Positions 4,091 through 25,016 of a DNA stretch of 64,000 bases are shown here, piece after piece. The DNA is taken from NCBI GenBank assembly GCA_003225055.1, contig QIAU01000149.1:1-64000 (forward strand), written 5' to 3'. A model generated the notes under the pieces. The model was given only the letters and a program-made list of their open reading frames with translations, searched no databases and was not told the origin of the DNA. The stretch comes from Acidobacteriota bacterium (lineage in GTDB: Bacteria > Acidobacteriota > Terriglobia > Terriglobales > Acidobacteriaceae). The translations under genes and the position numbers were made by a program. Numbering within the stretch: position 1 is the stretch's first letter; each line of letters opens with the position of its first letter.

Positions 4091-5614
4091 TTGAACCTCC
4101 GCCCCGTGAGGAGATCGGGTGTGAACATCGCCGACGTGGTGTCGGGACGCGTTCAGTTGAAGAGTCTCCAGCGGCTGTTGCTTTCCCCGCCGGCCCGCAG
4201 GGTATTAGCAGATCGTCTGAGAGCCCTTCTGCCGGAGGGGGCCTCATTGGGACCGCGTCATCTAAGGGAGGTGCGATTCAAGCCCGGGCGCCAGCTCACG
4301 GCCTATCGCGATGTTCGAGTGCGCGTCGGGGCTAGCGAGAGGTATCGGGTTCGCCCCATCGCCGTAACCTGGGAATCGAATGCTGACGCCGATCGGCACG
4401 AAGAGACGGTCGATCTGGCCCAGATGCAGGACGAGGCGGTGCGTCGCGGCGTAGCAGCACCCTTCCTGCAACTGATGTTGGATTTTCCCGAGGGGTGCAT
4501 GCAGATCCGGGTCTCGCCGCTGGATGCGCGATTCCCCCAGCTTGTTCGCTTGTCGGATCCGCAGCACGTGCGGGCGCTGCTCGCCGACGTCTTCGCGTCA
4601 GGTGATCGGGCAGCGGATCAGTCTCGAGTCAGCGAGTACACAGTTACCTTTATAAAATATCGGCCCGGTAAGCGGCACGTGCTGCGCTACGACCCGGTAG
4701 GTCCGGGAAAGGGGAAAGCCGTATTCGCCAAGCTTTACATCGGCGAAGAGGGAGGGCGCGCTTATCGCCGCGAAGACGGAGCGCGCGCCTTTCGCGTGGC
4801 GCGGGAGGTTGCAGACTGGCTGGCCGAGCGTGGCCAGGGTGTGAATTGCCTGCGCCCGCTAGCCTACGTGGCGGAGGATGCGGTTGTCCTTTACCCGCGA
4901 GTTGGCGGCGTGCCGCTGTCTGACTACGCGCGCCGCCCTCACCGCGACGTAGCACGGTGGCTGCAGCAGGCCGGGGCGGCGCTGTGCACCTTGCATCACC
5001 TGCCCGTCGAGTTCGCCGGCCGGCCCGAGCCCCATGATTTTGCGGCCGAGATTGGGGCGATCGCGCAGAAGAGCCTTTATATCCCCGTGCTGCTGCCGCA
5101 GGTGGGACCGGCGATTAAGGCGCTCTTCGACCGCGCGCGAGAATTGCACGAGCAACTGCCCCAGGAGGCGCCGACTTTCACCCACGGGGATATGAAGGCC
5201 GAACACATCTGGGTTGCCGCTGGCGGGATCACAGTGATGGATTTCGATAGCTCTCGCTTGGCCGACCCGGCACTGGATGTGGGATATTTCCTGGCCGATT
5301 GGCAGTTCCGGCAGGCCGCTTATGATCAGGCCGGCGTAGACGAGAGGTACAAGAGTTTCCTCGCCGGGTACGCCCCCGGTGCGCCGAAAGAGCGCTTGCT
5401 CCGCGCCCGTCTCTACGAGGCGGTCGAGTTGGTCAAATGTGCGGTGCGTCGCACGCAGCTCTTCGACCAGGACTGGGCGTCCCATGTGGTTGGGCTGGTT
5501 GGCCGCGCGCAGGTTCTGATGGACGATCTTCAACGTACCCTGGGCTTGCCTGCGCGGCCGCTCTCGCACCCCCGGAGCCTTAACCCGGGCTCCGCGGTGA
5601 AGAGCAGGTACTGA
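4091..5614 (+). CDS. Phosphotransferase-fold kinase (APH/choline kinase-like), copy 1
   Basis: A protein of up to 507 residues with an aminoglycoside/choline-kinase type phosphotransferase domain in its C-terminal half. The Brenner-type catalytic loop is FTHGDMKAEHIW with catalytic D367, and the metal-binding motif is VMDFDSSRLADPALDVG. The nucleotide-binding lobe seems to lie around KYRPGKRHVLRYDP and KAVFAKLYIG. The first 180 residues (LRALLPEG, FKPGRQLTAYRD, VRPIAVTW) are shared only with the next gene and I do not recognise them. The start is uncertain: TTG at 4091 is the longest, with GTG at 4121 or 4136 possible. The small-molecule substrate is unknown. The neighbour is a paralog 18 nt downstream, so they are likely one operon. 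Confidence 0.8.
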   Translation: MNLRPVRRSGVNIADVVSGRVQLKSLQRLLLSPPARRVLADRLRALLPEGASLGPRHLREVRFKPGRQLTAYRDVRVRVGASERYRVRPIAVTWESNADADRHEETVDLAQMQDEAVRRGVAAPFLQLMLDFPEGCMQIRVSPLDARFPQLVRLSDPQHVRALLADVFASGDRAADQSRVSEYTVTFIKYRPGKRHVLRYDPVGPGKGKAVFAKLYIGEEGGRAYRREDGARAFRVAREVADWLAERGQGVNCLRPLAYVAEDAVVLYPRVGGVPLSDYARRPHRDVARWLQQAGAALCTLHHLPVEFAGRPEPHDFAAEIGAIAQKSLYIPVLLPQVGPAIKALFDRARELHEQLPQEAPTFTHGDMKAEHIWVAAGGITVMDFDSSRLADPALDVGYFLADWQFRQAAYDQAGVDERYKSFLAGYAPGAPKERLLRARLYEAVELVKCAVRRTQLFDQDWASHVVGLVGRAQVLMDDLQRTLGLPARPLSHPRSLNPGSAVKSRY

Positions 5615-14863: not shown

Positions 14864-15697
14864 ATGTATCGCACACTGAACCGCTTGGCCCGCCCCGCCC
14901 TGATCTTTGCCATTGTGGCAAGTGCTACGTTCGCCATCTTGCTGCCCGTTCAGGCGCAGTGTCCGGCGACCCCAACTATCTTTCAGACCAGCCTTCTGGA
15001 AACGAACCAGCCCGGAACCGAGATCAGCACCGAGCGGCTTCAGCAGATCCTGGCCTCTGGCAGCATGCGGGTGTTCGACGTCCGTTTCCCGCTGGAATAC
15101 GCGATTTCGCATATCGCCGGCGCAATGAACATCCCCCCGGAGAACAACACCATCGTGACCCGCGAAGTAAGCCAGATCACCGCCCTCTATCCTGATCCTC
15201 ATGCCGAGTTCGTGCTCACCTGCAACGGGCCGTTCTGCGGCAAGAGCAAACGCGTCGCGGCCGCACTCGTCAGCGCCGGTTATGACAACTTCTATCGCTA
15301 TCAGCTGGGCTTGCCGGTGTGGCGTGCCCTCGGCAACACGGTCGAGACCGATCTCGATGGCTTCGCCTACATCTTCAATGGCGACCGCACCGCTGTCTTC
15401 GTCGATGCTCGCACGCCGGAGGTTTTCCGCGACGACACCGTCGCCTGCGCTGTCAACATTCAACCCGGCGAGGCCGCGGCTGCCAACGAGGATGGCCGCT
15501 TGCCACTGTGGGACAAAGGCGCGCGTGTGGTCGTGTTTGCCGATAACCCTCAGCTCGCCGCCAAGGTGGCAGGAGAAATCGCCAAGAAAGCGTATTGGAG
15601 CAGCAGCTACTTCAGCGGGACGTTGAGCGACCTCGAAAACAGTCAGCGGGTCCACATCCACAGCGAGCGTCGCTGCCACACCGGAGAACAAAACTAG
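14864..15697 (+). CDS. Secreted tandem rhodanese-domain protein
   Basis: A 277-residue exported protein with a Sec signal (FAIVASATFAILLPVQAQ, cleaved near residue 32) and a strong AAGGAGG site. Two rhodanese domains follow. The first (about 55-160) has VFDVRFPLEYAISHIAGAMN and an active loop LTCNGPFCGKSKR holding the catalytic cysteine. The second (about 165-255) has VFVDARTPEVFRDD, but the loop position reads VVFADNPQLAAKV with no cysteine, so it is likely inactive. It probably transfers sulfane sulfur in the periplasm; donor and acceptor are unknown. It is divergent from the CadC-like regulator. Confidence 0.8.
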   Translation: MYRTLNRLARPALIFAIVASATFAILLPVQAQCPATPTIFQTSLLETNQPGTEISTERLQQILASGSMRVFDVRFPLEYAISHIAGAMNIPPENNTIVTREVSQITALYPDPHAEFVLTCNGPFCGKSKRVAAALVSAGYDNFYRYQLGLPVWRALGNTVETDLDGFAYIFNGDRTAVFVDARTPEVFRDDTVACAVNIQPGEAAAANEDGRLPLWDKGARVVVFADNPQLAAKVAGEIAKKAYWSSSYFSGTLSDLENSQRVHIHSERRCHTGEQN

Positions 15698-17066: not shown

Positions 17067-17726
17067 ATGCAAGCGTCGGAACCAAATCCGCAGAAGTCCC
17101 GGTCAGCCGGCGACAGCGGTGGACTTCGAGCCTGGCCACCGGTAGTGGGCTTTCTTGTGGCTGATGCTTCTATGAAGCCGCTCTTTGCCAACAATGAGGC
17201 GATTGCAATATTGACCTATCCGGGACCGACGTCTCAGAGCCTCGCGGACGTATTCCACAAAAAGGTCCGCCCCGGTCTTTTTAGCACTCAGGGCTCTCAC
17301 GCAAACCGGAACCGGGCTTACCCCATCATAAAATTGAGGTCCGGACGCCGGACCTATTTCTGCCGGGCGTTTCTTCTGAACAGCAATGGCAAAGGTTCGA
17401 GCGACACTGCGACCCTGGTTGTGCTGGAGCGAGGGATGTCCGGACCTCTTGCCCTGTCCCAGGTCTCCGAGCAATTCCACCTTACCCATCGCGAGCAGCA
17501 AGCAGTAGCACTGTTGCTGCAGGGGTTGAGCAACAAGGAAGTGGCAGAGAATATGGGAATCAGTGCAAATACGGTCAAGGCCTTTCTGCGTATCGCTACC
17601 ATCAAAATGGGGGTTTCCAGCCGGTCGGGAATCGTGACCAAGATCCTGGGTCTGCTTTTGTCCTCCAGCAACTCGGAGCTAACTGGTCACGGGGATAATG
17701 GAAGGTCGTATGAGCCCCCATTGTGA
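17067..17726 (+). CDS. LuxR-type regulator with N-terminal PAS-like region
   Basis: A 219-residue protein. The C-terminal domain (about 145-205) is a LuxR/NarL helix-turn-helix: LTHREQQAVALLLQGLSNKE, VAENMGISANTVKAFLRIA. The N-terminal half (PPVVGFLVADASMKPLFANN) looks like a PAS-like sensor that in this group follows phrases such as 'residual view of self/inner state'; no receiver-domain aspartate is present, so it is not a response regulator. The ligand is unknown. It is 355 nt upstream of the kinase-BNR gene in the same direction and may control it. Confidence 0.8.
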   Translation: MQASEPNPQKSRSAGDSGGLRAWPPVVGFLVADASMKPLFANNEAIAILTYPGPTSQSLADVFHKKVRPGLFSTQGSHANRNRAYPIIKLRSGRRTYFCRAFLLNSNGKGSSDTATLVVLERGMSGPLALSQVSEQFHLTHREQQAVALLLQGLSNKEVAENMGISANTVKAFLRIATIKMGVSSRSGIVTKILGLLLSSSNSELTGHGDNGRSYEPPL

Positions 17727-18081: not shown

Positions 18082-20193
18082 ATGATAGGCCAAGTTCTCG
18101 GCCATTGCCGCGTCTTATCGAAGATCGGGGAAGGGGGAATGGGAGTTGTCTATCGTGCTTACGACGAAGTGTTGCACCGCGAAGTGGCCCTGAAAGTTGT
18201 TAACAAGGATTTGGGTCTGGATCCATCAGCAAGCCAGAATCTGCTCCATGAAGCGCGTGCCTCTTCTTCTCTGGCTCATCCCAACATCTGTACGATCCAT
18301 GAAGTTGGGGAGACTGGCGGCGAGCTTTATATCGTGATGGAACTGGTCGAGGGAAAGTCTCTGCACGTCATGAGCGGAGAGGGGGGATTGCCGCCAGAGT
18401 CAGTCCTACGGTATGGCGTTCAGATCGCGAGTGCCCTCGCGCGAGCCCATGACCGGGGTATTATTCATCGGGATCTAAAGACGGCGAATATTGTCGTCAC
18501 TGCTGACGGCCTGGTCAAAGTTCTCGACTTCGGTCTAGCCAAACAGGTAGGAAGCGGGATTCTCGAAGGTCCTACCCGATCCTTTGCAACCGTACAGGAC
18601 GCTTCGAGCGTAAGTGGCACTTTGCCCTACATGGCGCCTGAAATCCTGCGTGGAGAGGCGGCCGACGGCCGTAGTGATCTTTGGGCGCTAGGAGTCGTGC
18701 TCTATGAACTCGCCTCCGGGCGCTTGCCATTTGAGGGGCGCACTGGCTTTGAGATCAGCTCGATCATCATGCGCGAACCCCCAAAGCCACTCGGGCCTCC
18801 GGTGCCGCCTGGCTTATGGGCGACTATCCAACGTTGCTTGGCCAAAGAACCGATGCAGCGTTATCAACGCGCGAGTGAAGTTCAGGCGGCTCTGGAGGCG
18901 GTTCAGTCGGGCGCAATCGTTGCAGCTGATTCCGGTACCGATCGAAGCGCCGGTGCACCCAGGACTACCGTCTTGCACAGTGTGCGACATGCCCATGTCA
19001 GGAAGGGAGACTTTCTTTTGCTGGTCGGAACGACCAAAGGAGCGTTCATCCTTCGCTCGAATGCTCAGCGCAGCCGCTGGGAGGTCGGTGGTCCCTACTT
19101 CCACGGGCACACGGTTTACGCGCTGGCCTATGATGGGCGTGGAAGCCGGCACCGCATCTGGGCTTCGACGCAGAGTTATTGGGGCACCCTCCTGCGGTCC
19201 AGCGAAGATTTCGGGAAGAGCTGGACGAATCCGCAGCAGGCCAGCATTCGGTTTCCCCCTGACACCGGTGTTTCCTTGAAGAACATCTGGCAGATAACAC
19301 TCGGTCGGCCCGAGGAACCCGACGTCCTCTATTGCGGCGTGGAACCGGCGGCGCTGTTCGAAAGCCGCGACGCGGGCGAGACATGGTCGCTAGTGCGTGG
19401 TCTGTTCGATCATCCGCATCGTCCCCGCTGGATGCCAGGTAATGGAGGCCTGTCGCTGCATAGCATTGTGCTCGACCCGGCTGACAACCAGCGCATGTAC
19501 GTGGCAATTTCCGCCGGTGGCGTCTACCGCACCGACGATGCGGGGCGCACATGGACAGCGCAAAACCGCGGCATCCGCGCTATGTTCATGCCCGATAAGT
19601 ATCCCGAATTCGGGCAGTGCGTACACAAGATCGCACTGCATCCTGATCGTCCAGGACGCCTTTTCCTGCAAAATCATTGGGGACTCTATCGCTCTGACAA
19701 CTGCGCTGAAACCTGGACGGACATTGCTAATGGCGTGCCGTCGGATTTCGGTTTTGCCGTTGTCATACACCCCAAAAATCCCGACTGGGTGTATGTCGTT
19801 CCAGTCGAGTCCGATGAGTTTCGGTGCGCGTGCGAAGGCCGACTGCGGGTTTATCGAACTCGCAACGCTGGGGCCTCGTGGGAGCCCCTCATGCGTGGCT
19901 TGCCACAAAAACGCGCTTACGAAACTGTCTTGCGTGATGCAATGTCCGCAGATTCATTCGATCCGGTCGGAATTTACTTAGGGACGCGGAGCGGACAACT
20001 CTTTGGCTCGCGCGACGAAGGAAGAACATGGCAAAAGATACTCGAAGGGTTGCCATCGGTGGTCTGCGTACGGTGTGCGCTCGTCGAGGACGCCTTTGGC
20101 GAATCAAAGGCATCGCCCAGAGAATCGCACAGGACTTCATCCCCAGCGAAATCGGCAACGACGCCCAAGTCGCAGCAAACGAAAAAGAGCTAA
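18082..20193 (+). CDS. Ser/Thr protein kinase fused to BNR/sortilin-like repeat domain
   Basis: A 703-residue fusion. Residues 8-275 are a complete Hanks-type kinase: glycine loop KIGEGGMGVVYRAYDE, K38 in VALKVV, catalytic IIHRDLKTANI (D131), DFGLA (D149), APE motif YMAPEILRGEA. From about 310 on is a beta-propeller of Asp-box (BNR/exo-sialidase/VPS10-like) repeats: SSEDFGKSWTNPQQ, ESRDAGETWSLVRG, RTDDAGRTWTAQNRG, RSDNCAETWTDI, RTRNAGASWEPL, GSRDEGRTWQKI. No transmembrane helix or signal peptide is evident, so both parts are probably cytoplasmic. A MoaD/ThiS-like gene starts 2 nt after its stop. BNR proteins are often paired with such a small partner; the kinase attached to the BNR part is the unusual feature. 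Confidence 0.85.
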   Translation: MIGQVLGHCRVLSKIGEGGMGVVYRAYDEVLHREVALKVVNKDLGLDPSASQNLLHEARASSSLAHPNICTIHEVGETGGELYIVMELVEGKSLHVMSGEGGLPPESVLRYGVQIASALARAHDRGIIHRDLKTANIVVTADGLVKVLDFGLAKQVGSGILEGPTRSFATVQDASSVSGTLPYMAPEILRGEAADGRSDLWALGVVLYELASGRLPFEGRTGFEISSIIMREPPKPLGPPVPPGLWATIQRCLAKEPMQRYQRASEVQAALEAVQSGAIVAADSGTDRSAGAPRTTVLHSVRHAHVRKGDFLLLVGTTKGAFILRSNAQRSRWEVGGPYFHGHTVYALAYDGRGSRHRIWASTQSYWGTLLRSSEDFGKSWTNPQQASIRFPPDTGVSLKNIWQITLGRPEEPDVLYCGVEPAALFESRDAGETWSLVRGLFDHPHRPRWMPGNGGLSLHSIVLDPADNQRMYVAISAGGVYRTDDAGRTWTAQNRGIRAMFMPDKYPEFGQCVHKIALHPDRPGRLFLQNHWGLYRSDNCAETWTDIANGVPSDFGFAVVIHPKNPDWVYVVPVESDEFRCACEGRLRVYRTRNAGASWEPLMRGLPQKRAYETVLRDAMSADSFDPVGIYLGTRSGQLFGSRDEGRTWQKILEGLPSVVCVRCALVEDAFGESKASPRESHRTSSPAKSATTPKSQQTKKS

Positions 20194-20195
20194 TT

Positions 20196-20477
20196 GTGTC
20201 GGTGACCTTTCACATTCCAGGTGCCTTGCGCGAATTTACTGCCGGGCGCAGCACGGTTGAGATCGAACAGTTAGCGGGGACTCTGGCCGACGCCTTGTCC
20301 GGTCTATGGACACTTTATCCTGGGGTTCGAGATCGCATCGTGACGGAGCAAGGACAAGTTCGGCAACATATCAACATCTTCATTGGTGCAGAGAACGTCA
20401 GATATACGGGCGGACTCGCCAGTCCCGTCTCGAACGGATCTGAGATCTCCATCGTCCCTGCTGTCAGTGGCGGCTGA
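20196..20477 (+). CDS. MoaD/ThiS-family ubiquitin-fold protein ending in GG
   Basis: A 93-residue beta-grasp protein. GTG 20196 is chosen because it gives the family start (VSVTFHIPGALREFTAGRST) and lies 2 nt after the kinase-BNR stop; longer in-frame starts would overlap that gene by up to 166 nt. Family blocks are VEIEQLAGTLADALSGLW, INIFIGAENVRYTGGLASPV and ISIVPAVSGG, with the C-terminal Gly-Gly used for adenylation, thiocarboxylation or conjugation. No MoaE, ThiF/MoeB-like E1 or JAMM protease lies nearby, so a molybdopterin or thiamin role is not indicated. It probably works with the adjacent BNR protein. Function is unknown. Confidence 0.85.
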   Translation: MSVTFHIPGALREFTAGRSTVEIEQLAGTLADALSGLWTLYPGVRDRIVTEQGQVRQHINIFIGAENVRYTGGLASPVSNGSEISIVPAVSGG

Positions 20478-22058: not shown

Positions 22059-25016
22059 TTAGTTCACTGGCCCCAGATACCGGTCCAGCCAGTTCAGTGT
22101 TTCCTTGATCAGTTCGTTGCGTGGGATGTTGTGACCGGTTTCGTAGAGCAGGTGTTTCTTCTGGTCTTTCCTCGAACCCAGCAGCCGATAGAAAGGCTCC
22201 TGAGTGGATTCCACGGGGAAAAAGAAATCGTAGTGTCCATTCAGCATCAAGACCGGCTGCTTAACTCTTGAAATGAAGTTGATGGTATCGGCTTCAGGAA
22301 GCGATCGATGGAAGTCGAGTCCACCCAGCGCGAGGATACAAACCTTAATGCGTGGTTCGACGGCGGGCACAATGGCTCCCATTTCCGCGCCCCAACTGTA
22401 GCCGTAGTAGGCCAGCTTACTCCGATCCAGTTCAGGACGCGTCTCAGCGTAGTCGATGGCCCGCGAAGCGTCCTTCACCCACATGACGACGTGATCTCGC
22501 CAGTCGCTGGTTATGCTCGCTACATCTGTTTCCATGCCGTCGCCTCGTTCATAAGTGCTCTTGTAAACGGGGTACAGCACGGCGCGGCCGCTCCTGAGAA
22601 CGGCGTCCAGAGCCGATGTCGCGTAGAGCGAGAACTTCCGTAGCAGGAGTGCATTCGATCCGGGGAAGAAGAGGACCGTCTGGAATGGCGGCTTGACTTT
22701 CTTTGGAAGGAATAAGTAGGCGATGGCCCGCTCGTTTCCGTAAGCCGCCGTGTAAGTGATCTTCTCGGCTTTCCAATCCTCTTCGTCCTGGCCAAAAGGC
22801 TCAACCGATGCGTTCAGGGGTGTCCTGTCATAGGAATAAACGCCGCGGTAGGCCTGGAACAGTTGGTCGGAGGCCGGTTTCTCCTTAGTTAAATCGCGCC
22901 GGGGCGAGGGCATCGGATCGGTCGCGACTTGGGGCAGCGATTCAGGTTCAATATACTTCACACAACGGAACCCAATATTCGATGCACGGAGAAAGGGCGA
23001 CTGCGCGTCCGGGTCGATGAACATATAGTTGGGTTCGTCCCAGGCTCCACCGAGGACGTAGCGCTTGCCGGACTCTGCTTCGGTCCAGATCCACTCCTTC
23101 ACGTTGCCCGCCATATCGTAGTTTCCCCACGGGCTCATGTCCGGCTCACTGCCGACCGGCAGAATACCCGGGCCGCCGAAGTTGCTTGCCGGCACGATGA
23201 ACGCTGCGGAAAACGGTCCTGCAGCCCGGTTCCAGTGATAGATCGTGGGCAAATTCTTGCCCGCAAACTCCGCATAAGCCGCCGCTTCGTACCAGCTAAT
23301 CCCAGTAACAGGGAAGCCGTCTTGTCCCTTGGGATATTCGCCCTGGATCCACTCTTTCGGTCCGGGCCGCCCGGCACTATCTCGGAATAGCGCCATTGCC
23401 TCTTCCCACGAGAGACGCTTTCCGTCTCGCAGGAAATCGACTTTCCAATACTGGCGTTTTTGATATCCACCCTGGTCCAGAAAGGCCTTGAACTGGCGGT
23501 TCGTCACCTCATATTGATCGATCCAATAATCTTTGAGGGCCAACTCCGGCATTCCTTCATAGCCCGGAATAAATAGTGTTTTGAAGTATTTTGCCGGCGA
23601 GACCCTCACCATTCCCGGAGGAATGGTTGCCACCTCGTCGAGCGTAACGCTTCCCTCTACGGGATCGCCGGGAGGCACCGAATACCGTGGAATCAAGGCG
23701 AGTGTCGTCCGCAAAGCGGTACCGAAACCCGGTTTCTCGAACTTCCAGACGAACATCCCGCGGGGCTGGCGGATATTCCTCAGCGGAGTTCTCCCGACGA
23801 ATTCCCAGGGCGCATTGACGTTACCGTAATCCTGGCGGTAGACGTCTACGCCGGGCGGCGTTGTCTCGAGCGAAAGCTGGTAGGAAATTGCTGGCCACAG
23901 CTTGGCCAGCGCGGTATCGCCAGAAATCGATTTCTCAGCTTTCACAGCGAGCGCGTAAGCGGCGCCAAATTTCCCCTGGTCCGACAGTTTCGACATCTCC
24001 GGCAAGGCCACCTCTCGCGCCCAGCGAGCGTCACGGTAGCGCTTTACCTGCCAGGCCGCTCCTGTGCCAAGAACAATAACCGTCAGCAGGAGCGGAACCA
24101 GCACTCGCGGGCGGTGTACCTCTCTGACAATCCTTGCAGGGCTTAATATCGAGCCCGACTCGGGGAACAAAAGGTCGCGACAGCTCTTGAGTTCCTGTGC
24201 GAGTTCGGCGCCACCGGCGTAACGCGCAGCGGGGTCTTTTTTCAGGCAGCGGGTAACGATGCGGCGTACTTCCGGCGGGACCTCTCGTTTGACTTCCTGC
24301 AAAGGCTTCGGATCGTCCCGCATGACGGCCGAGAGCAACGCGGCGCTGGATTGGCCCTCGAAAGATCTCCGAGCAGTCAACATTTCATAGAGCACCGAAC
24401 CGAATGAAAAGACATCGCTGCGCGCGTCGATCGGCTTTCCTTCCGCCTGCTCCGGCGACATGTAGGCCACTGTGCCCACGATCATCCCTGGCGTCGTTGC
24501 CATGGTGGCATCTTCGCCGCTCATCGCAGACGCCGGGGGAGCAAGTTTGGCGAGCCCAAAGTCCAGCACTTTGACCAGTCCGTTTTCGTCCACCATGATG
24601 TTCGCGGGCTTCAGGTCGCGGTGTACGATGCCTGCGGCGTGTGCGCGCGCGAGAGCATCGGCGATCTGTGCGGCGTACCTGATCGCTTGATCCGTTGCCA
24701 TACCACCCGGAGGAATCAATTTGTCCAGCGTTTGCCCGCCGACGTACTCCATAACCATGAAGTCAACGCCATCCTCGGAACCGATGTCATGAACCACGCA
24801 GATGTTGGGATGTTGCAGCCCCGAGATGGATTTAGCTTCTTGCTCGAAGCGGGTATGCAGATCTGAGTTCGAGGACAGAGGTGCGGGCAGAACTTTAATC
24901 GCGACCGTACGTTGTAGCCTTGTGTCTCGGGCGCGATACACTTCGCCCATGCCGCCAGCCCCGAGGAGCGACTGGATCTCGTACGGCCCGAACCTTGTGC
25001 CAGGGACGAGTGCCAT
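22059..25016 (-). CDS. Ser/Thr kinase fused to SUMF1-like and alpha/beta-hydrolase domains
   Basis: A 985-residue multidomain protein. Residues 10-275 are an intact Hanks kinase (LLGAGGMGEVYRARD, K41, IVHRDLKPANIMV with D134, DFGLA). A transmembrane helix follows near 305-325 (VLVPLLLTVIVLGTGAAWQV), then a PEGA-like stretch (VDVYRQDYGNVN). About residues 475-700 are a formylglycine-generating/SUMF1 fold (DYWIDQYEVTNRQFKAFLDQ, WYEAAAYAEFAGKNLPT, NYDMAGNVKEWIW, NIGFRCVKY). The C-terminus is an alpha/beta hydrolase with nucleophile elbow YYGYSWGAEMG and late acid and His blocks (NGHYDFFFPVE, ETGHNIP). The kinase faces the cytoplasm and the rest the periplasm. This fusion recurs in Acidobacteriota; its substrates are not known. 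Confidence 0.9.
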   Translation of the reverse strand: MALVPGTRFGPYEIQSLLGAGGMGEVYRARDTRLQRTVAIKVLPAPLSSNSDLHTRFEQEAKSISGLQHPNICVVHDIGSEDGVDFMVMEYVGGQTLDKLIPPGGMATDQAIRYAAQIADALARAHAAGIVHRDLKPANIMVDENGLVKVLDFGLAKLAPPASAMSGEDATMATTPGMIVGTVAYMSPEQAEGKPIDARSDVFSFGSVLYEMLTARRSFEGQSSAALLSAVMRDDPKPLQEVKREVPPEVRRIVTRCLKKDPAARYAGGAELAQELKSCRDLLFPESGSILSPARIVREVHRPRVLVPLLLTVIVLGTGAAWQVKRYRDARWAREVALPEMSKLSDQGKFGAAYALAVKAEKSISGDTALAKLWPAISYQLSLETTPPGVDVYRQDYGNVNAPWEFVGRTPLRNIRQPRGMFVWKFEKPGFGTALRTTLALIPRYSVPPGDPVEGSVTLDEVATIPPGMVRVSPAKYFKTLFIPGYEGMPELALKDYWIDQYEVTNRQFKAFLDQGGYQKRQYWKVDFLRDGKRLSWEEAMALFRDSAGRPGPKEWIQGEYPKGQDGFPVTGISWYEAAAYAEFAGKNLPTIYHWNRAAGPFSAAFIVPASNFGGPGILPVGSEPDMSPWGNYDMAGNVKEWIWTEAESGKRYVLGGAWDEPNYMFIDPDAQSPFLRASNIGFRCVKYIEPESLPQVATDPMPSPRRDLTKEKPASDQLFQAYRGVYSYDRTPLNASVEPFGQDEEDWKAEKITYTAAYGNERAIAYLFLPKKVKPPFQTVLFFPGSNALLLRKFSLYATSALDAVLRSGRAVLYPVYKSTYERGDGMETDVASITSDWRDHVVMWVKDASRAIDYAETRPELDRSKLAYYGYSWGAEMGAIVPAVEPRIKVCILALGGLDFHRSLPEADTINFISRVKQPVLMLNGHYDFFFPVESTQEPFYRLLGSRKDQKKHLLYETGHNIPRNELIKETLNWLDRYLGPVN

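Follow-up and report, generated by a model that had tools for sequence, protein, structure and literature searches.

What role could be shared by a fusion of a protein kinase with an Asp-box β-propeller and a small sulfur-carrier-like protein encoded immediately behind it? The question is raised by two adjacent genes at positions 18082 to 20477 (+ strand) of the window, i.e., the whole 64-kb stretch of DNA that was analysed, which comes from a soil bacterium of the Acidobacteriota with a genome of 7.4 Mb (98.7% complete).

The first gene (18082 to 20193, + strand) starts with ATG, encodes 703 amino acids, and ends with TAA at 20191 to 20193. Residues 11 to 262 (18112 to 18867) match the Pfam family PF00069 at 173.5 bits, and the motif patterns GEGGMGVVY (P-loop), VALK, HRDLKTAN, DFG, and APE are all present, a full catalytic set by which this domain is, as read from its motifs, a Hanks-type Ser/Thr kinase. 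The Asp-box (BNR) β-propeller was located by profile match at residues ~309 to 665 (19006 to 20076). The Asp-box region scores 34.6 bits against BNR and 52.8 bits against Sortilin-Vps10 in Pfam, and it contains six Asp-box turns, i.e., four strict and two degenerate ones. A complete Hanks kinase joined to six or more Asp-box repeats had been described in an earlier note on this DNA, and the description agrees with these matches, the count being exactly six. The family profile of the propeller aligns along almost its entire length with 3b7f, a solved protein of Ralstonia eutropha JMP134 (375 bits), and this match together with the Asp-box turns indicates that the window propeller is a member of the same Asp-box family. 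Unlike the window protein, 3b7f is a 394-residue chain that lacks the kinase part, and its title, "putative glycosyl hydrolase with bnr repeats," gives a putative function only. It is also the top structural match of the propeller-MoaD model made for the kinase-fused relative L015 (37% identity), which merely repeats the sequence match. The propeller is followed by a Ser/Lys/Arg-rich C-terminal tail (20077 to 20190) with a little-conserved sequence. Basic tails were also found on the four unfused propellers inspected, two of which are sisters of the kinase-fused clade; thus, the tail was not created by the fusion. No membrane helix was indicated in the window protein by hydropathy (19-residue maximum, 1.3).

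The second gene (20196 to 20477, + strand) encodes 93 amino acids and begins with GTG 2 nt past the stop codon of the fusion gene; this GTG aligns with the ATG starts of the partners in L015 and L018. The protein ends in VSGG, the Gly-Gly codons being read from the sequence at 20469 to 20474 and the stop codon running to 20477, as the earlier note had it. The protein scores 34.3 bits against ThiS (PF02597; cut-off, 22.5), and this profile match and the C-terminal GG indicate that it is of the MoaD/ThiS fold. The best NCBIfam model is that of the archaeal SAMP1 (NF041918), with 59.8 bits, 0.2 bits below the curated cut-off of 60; the three other partners or fusions scanned with this model scored 16.9 to 40.9. 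The window protein, for which conjugation would be a putative activity, differs from SAMP1 in having a propeller as its partner. Among solved structures, the small protein is most closely related to CysO (3dwg; 71.4 bits) and the ThiS/MoaD family protein of 4n6e (66.8 bits). Both are GG-ended carriers, each of which binds a dedicated enzyme, CysM and BexX, respectively; in contrast to the window protein, neither has a propeller as its partner.

The pairing was followed by searching the propeller profile in 396 genomes of the phylum. Matches were found in 141 genomes at 148 places, from which 144 distinct loci were taken. In 133 of the 144, the propeller gene has a MoaD-like gene on the same strand at a distance of no more than 1.5 kb; among the other 11 loci, one has its MoaD gene 1.7 kb off and three are truncated at a contig edge. 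In another collection, all seven further kinase-fused loci, from MAGs named Acidobacteria, have an adjacent MoaD-like gene, with a MoaD identity of 66 to 85%. In a sample of 13 plasmid loci out of 59 matching records, the pair is present in eight (Nonomuraea, Arthrobacter, two Burkholderia, Paraburkholderia, Cupriavidus, Mitsuaria, and Pseudomonas), and the propeller lacks an adjacent MoaD gene in five (one Streptomyces and four alphaproteobacteria). One of the unfused pairs, L030, is from Cupriavidus metallidurans CH34. Iteration of the MoaD profile used the very loci counted here; the first, noniterated profile had already matched in most of the loci then examined. The gene order varies by clade, with approximately two switches between propeller-MoaD and MoaD-propeller on the tree, while adjacency is kept. 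In two loci, L144 and L148, MoaD and the propeller are encoded in a single open reading frame; the junction contains no ATG, GTG, or TTG in L144 and one TTG in L148, and these two fusions group together weakly (support, 0.24). The earlier note had mentioned small MoaD/ThiS proteins paired with BNR proteins in other bacteria, had proposed a genome survey of such neighbours with and without the kinase, and had named a lack of joint conservation as what would speak against a system; the survey found the pair conserved in both settings. The propeller and the MoaD-like protein look like one working unit because they are encoded side by side in many bacteria. A correlation between propeller and MoaD distances (r = 0.91) was dropped as evidence for interaction, as it is expected of any neighbouring genes.

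The GG end was inspected in 148 partners, two of which are the single-frame fusions, where GG is internal. GG forms the very end of 125 of the 146 unfused partners and precedes an extension of 1 to 355 residues in 19; of the remaining two, one ends in PALA, and the end of the other is lost at a contig end. GG is therefore kept in 146 of the 147 partners with a visible end, a count that includes both internal cases and L037, in which MoaD is split across two frames. The partner without GG is encoded in a Nonomuraea plasmid record (L024, approximately 5072 to 5386). The longest extension was observed in L039 (genome G137), where the MoaD frame continues for 355 residues beyond GG; by its motif, this extension looks like the start of a translational GTPase.

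The kinase fusion is rare. Its nine loci form one clade (support, 1.0) that sits beside the unfused loci L053 and L048 on the propeller tree. All kinase motif patterns are present in five of the nine (the window, L015, L016, L018, and L021); no APE pattern was recognized in L019 and no HRD pattern in L037, and in L017 and L020 the kinase is split across two frames, which may reflect assembly errors or decay. The dN/dS ratio was calculated for ten pairs among five loci (the window, L015, L016, L018, and L019), whose synonymous distances are high, and was 0.06 to 0.11 for the kinase, 0.05 to 0.09 for the propeller, and 0.07 to 0.18 for MoaD, whereas that of the C-terminal tail was 0.27 to 0.86 in the seven computable pairs. 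The kinase, propeller, and MoaD are thus all under purifying selection in these five loci, as the earlier note had suspected from an apparent intactness of the unit among pseudogenes.

A possible source of activation is suggested by the neighbours of related pairs. A ThiF gene is present in all 70 genomes checked, with two to three per genome, and an E1 enzyme with ThiF and rhodanese domains is encoded within 200 nt of the pair as an immediate neighbour in five loci. In L115 it follows MoaD and in L137 it precedes the propeller, in each case on the same strand, and in L107, L122, and L176 it is divergent; in L176 the contig ends within the propeller, and MoaD is not visible. Chance would give approximately 0.1 to 0.3 such neighbours, a rough figure that assumes the above ThiF counts and typical gene numbers. 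The five propellers are 74 to 84% identical to each other, and the four visible MoaD tails end in AGG; therefore, the link to E1 holds for one subtype only, and the five loci are not independent lineages. E1 enzymes with a rhodanese domain are of the type that makes the thiocarboxylates of sulfur carriers, and the neighbours point to sulfur-carrier chemistry. The flanks were searched by phmmer over approximately 1.5 kb per side for L036 (the window locus) to L065 and up to approximately 3 to 4 kb for most others. Beyond the five E1 genes, no relative of the E1, JAMM, or MoaD-MoaE proteins was found in the searched flanks of any locus; there was no E1 in those of the nine kinase-fused loci, some of which are short. 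Likewise, phmmer with the genome's own copies found no E1, JAMM, or MoaD-MoaE relative elsewhere in the 64-kb window. The statement of the earlier note that no E1 or JAMM gene lies close is thus correct for the window, but five relatives have an E1-rhodanese gene directly adjacent. An unfused propeller-MoaD pair is also encoded elsewhere in the host genome, at C256 (L066, 3788 to 5259); it belongs to the AGG subtype, and its propeller is 44% identical to that of the window.

The reading that we favor, with a probability of roughly 0.4, is that the small protein is a sulfur-carrier or ubiquitin-like protein with the propeller as its dedicated receiver and that the kinase was added in one lineage. 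The pair itself is established by sequence comparison: the genes remain together, share a single reading frame in two genomes, and keep GG. A MoeZ/Uba4-type E1 with ThiF and rhodanese domains, such as that encoded at C23 of the host genome, would adenylate the GG tail and convert it to a thiocarboxylate; this step is probable, since GG is conserved and E1-rhodanese genes are neighbours of some pairs. The charged tail would then dock on the propeller, which would be an enzyme accepting the sulfur or else a binding protein passing it on. ThiG, MoaE, CysM, and BexX act as receivers for their carriers, and, because the pairing is constant and natural fusions exist, we give docking by analogy an even chance. 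In the kinase-fused lineage, the kinase may sense the occupancy of the propeller and report the sulfur state of the carrier by phosphorylation, probably in the cytoplasm, a tentative step that is drawn only from the fusion and from the selection on it. The whole would constitute a new type of signalling, in which the charge state of an E1-charged carrier on a propeller is converted to phosphorylation by the joined kinase, and in this full form we consider it doubtful. A model of the propeller and MoaD of L015 joined in one chain was poor (pLDDT, 62.5; pTM, 0.59), so the predicted docking finds no support there. Several observations also stand against the favored reading: the searched flanks of the nine kinase-fused loci contain no E1 gene, the internal GG of the two fusions cannot be activated without cleavage, the copy of the E1-adjacent subtype in the host genome shares only 44% identity with the window propeller, 5 of the 13 plasmid loci and 11 of the 144 phylum loci lack an adjacent MoaD, one partner has lost GG, and 2 of the 9 kinase fusions are split between frames, while two more lack one motif pattern.

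The strongest alternative, although a rather unlikely one, is that the small protein is a protein modifier like SAMP or Urm1, for which the propeller would be the main target or a target-picking adaptor and the kinase a regulated or modified client. Besides the near-threshold SAMP1 score, four entries among the nine listed solved relatives bear the name of SAMP1 or of a homolog of it, the residues after GG in 19 of the 148 partners resemble those of modifier precursors, and, in addition to the ubiquitous ThiF, a JAMM protein is encoded in 27 of the 30 propeller-bearing genomes checked (25 over the cut-off). However, JAMM is absent from the searched flanks, among the five genomes that have an E1 neighbour it was unmatched in three and matched only below the cut-off in a fourth, and the rhodanese domains of the E1 neighbours fit sulfur transfer. 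Moreover, in neighbour clustering, every gene family beside the pair was confined to at most 5 of 53 propeller groups. The two activities may coexist in one protein, as Urm1 is reported to perform both sulfur transfer and conjugation (PMC8561144). The window was also compared with conjugation operons in the strict sense. Operons of the Bil/CBASS type have E1, E2, and JAB genes together; the window, which has no E1 or JAMM relative and, by Pfam, no E2 among six neighbouring open reading frames, does not appear to be one. A defence system was rejected, as PADLOC had no match to the small protein, and all of the 25 listed among 34 models for P0001 match the kinase part; so was a phage origin, for which searching viral contigs with the propeller yielded 24 pattern matches but no confirmed one.

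It is unlikely that the partnership is noncatalytic, with the MoaD-like protein serving as a structural subunit or chaperone and its GG fitting a pocket without activation. Such a role would suit the internal GG of L144 and L148 and the partner that lacks GG, and Ycf48, a propeller more distant in fold, has been solved with a D1 peptide according to PDB titles; but the retention of GG, exactly terminal in 125 and followed by an extension in 19 of the 146 unfused partners, and the E1-rhodanese genes directly adjacent in five loci argue against it.

A reading of the propeller as an exo-alpha-sialidase with an incidental MoaD gene is very improbable. Relatives are so annotated in plasmid records, GH74 glycosidases are the next nearest in sequence and fold, and three Arg columns are conserved at >90% in 164 propellers. 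Sialidases (GH33) have an Arg triad but also need a conserved Tyr and Glu, and neither residue is among the columns conserved at >90%; the propeller apparently lacks the GH33 catalytic pair, which disfavours this reading, as do the absence of a membrane helix by hydropathy, the fusion to a kinase, and the retention with MoaD. The conserved residues of the propeller include H152, H207, Q222, H224, and R310 in the numbering of this comparison.

The host genome has five ThiS-family genes above the cut-off, namely, the window gene and those at C7, C276, C23, and C24. The C7 copy is ThiS-like and the C24 copy adjoins a threonine-synthase-like gene (both judged by eye), the C276 copy is fused to MoaE (236 amino acids; L001, 1237 to 1947), and the C23 copy adjoins the ThiF-rhodanese gene and a JAMM gene. 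That the window gene is an ordinary molybdenum-cofactor moaD beside a BNR gene by chance is hardly credible, since, despite its MoaD fold and GG tail and the presence of MoaE in the host and in 67 of 69 propeller-bearing genomes checked (of 141), the host MoaE has its own fused MoaD, the pair is kept in 133 of 144 loci, and MoaE is absent from two pair-bearing genomes, G066 and G005, that are 99 and 100% complete. The genomic evidence thus indicates that the regular moaD function of this genome lies with another gene than that of the small protein, and it bears out the view that cofactor synthesis is not the obvious role, one that the earlier note would have given up for a moaD used with a distant moaE. 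At C24, the MoaD-like protein is encoded directly 3' of the threonine-synthase-like gene (L013, 7055 to 8595), and in L141 a relative of that gene and a second MoaD gene lie beside a propeller-MoaD pair.

Other genes of the window were compared with the flanks of the related loci. The LuxR-type gene upstream of the fusion gene (17067 to 17726, + strand; GerE match in Pfam), which had been noted as a PAS/LuxR-type regulator, is real, but its membership in the unit was rejected, as no relative was found in any other locus searched. A rhodanese-domain protein is encoded further upstream (14864 to 15697, + strand; PF00581, 65.3 bits), and its nearness may be due to chance because no relative lies in the searched flanks of the other loci. 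Other Hanks kinase fusions of the phylum also combine an N-terminal kinase with another domain; one is encoded in the window at 22059 to 25016 (- strand) and joins Pkinase with sulfatase-modifying-factor-like and hydrolase-like domains. The fusion studied here differs from these in that the joined domain comes from a pair linked to a ubiquitin-like protein and in that no membrane helix is seen.

No description of the propeller-MoaD pair was found among the matches listed in the open literature, with few subscription papers covered. Iyer et al. (2006; PMC1779556) described MoaD-E1-rhodanese-JAB operons, i.e., ubiquitin-like proteins with ThiF-rhodanese proteins outside cofactor operons, and an operon of this type occurs separately in the host genome at C23. 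The words BNR, propeller, and sialidase do not occur in the main text of that paper, and PMC1949818 mentions a propeller once, in a list of domain abbreviations. PMC3495685 proved a false lead as a source on the pair.

The pair has been hidden behind annotations like "exo-alpha-sialidase" and "MoaD/ThiS family protein." Each known partner of a MoaD/ThiS-like carrier has revealed a pathway, i.e., those of thiamine, molybdopterin, cysteine, and thiosugars. The propeller would be a new carrier partner, present in 141 of the 396 acidobacterial genomes searched and also in Burkholderia, Cupriavidus, Pseudomonas, and two actinobacteria. If the favored reading is true, the unfused pair would represent a widespread, undescribed sulfur-transfer or ubiquitin-like system with a propeller as the receiver, and the kinase fusion would offer a measurable output by which sensing of the state of the tail becomes directly testable.
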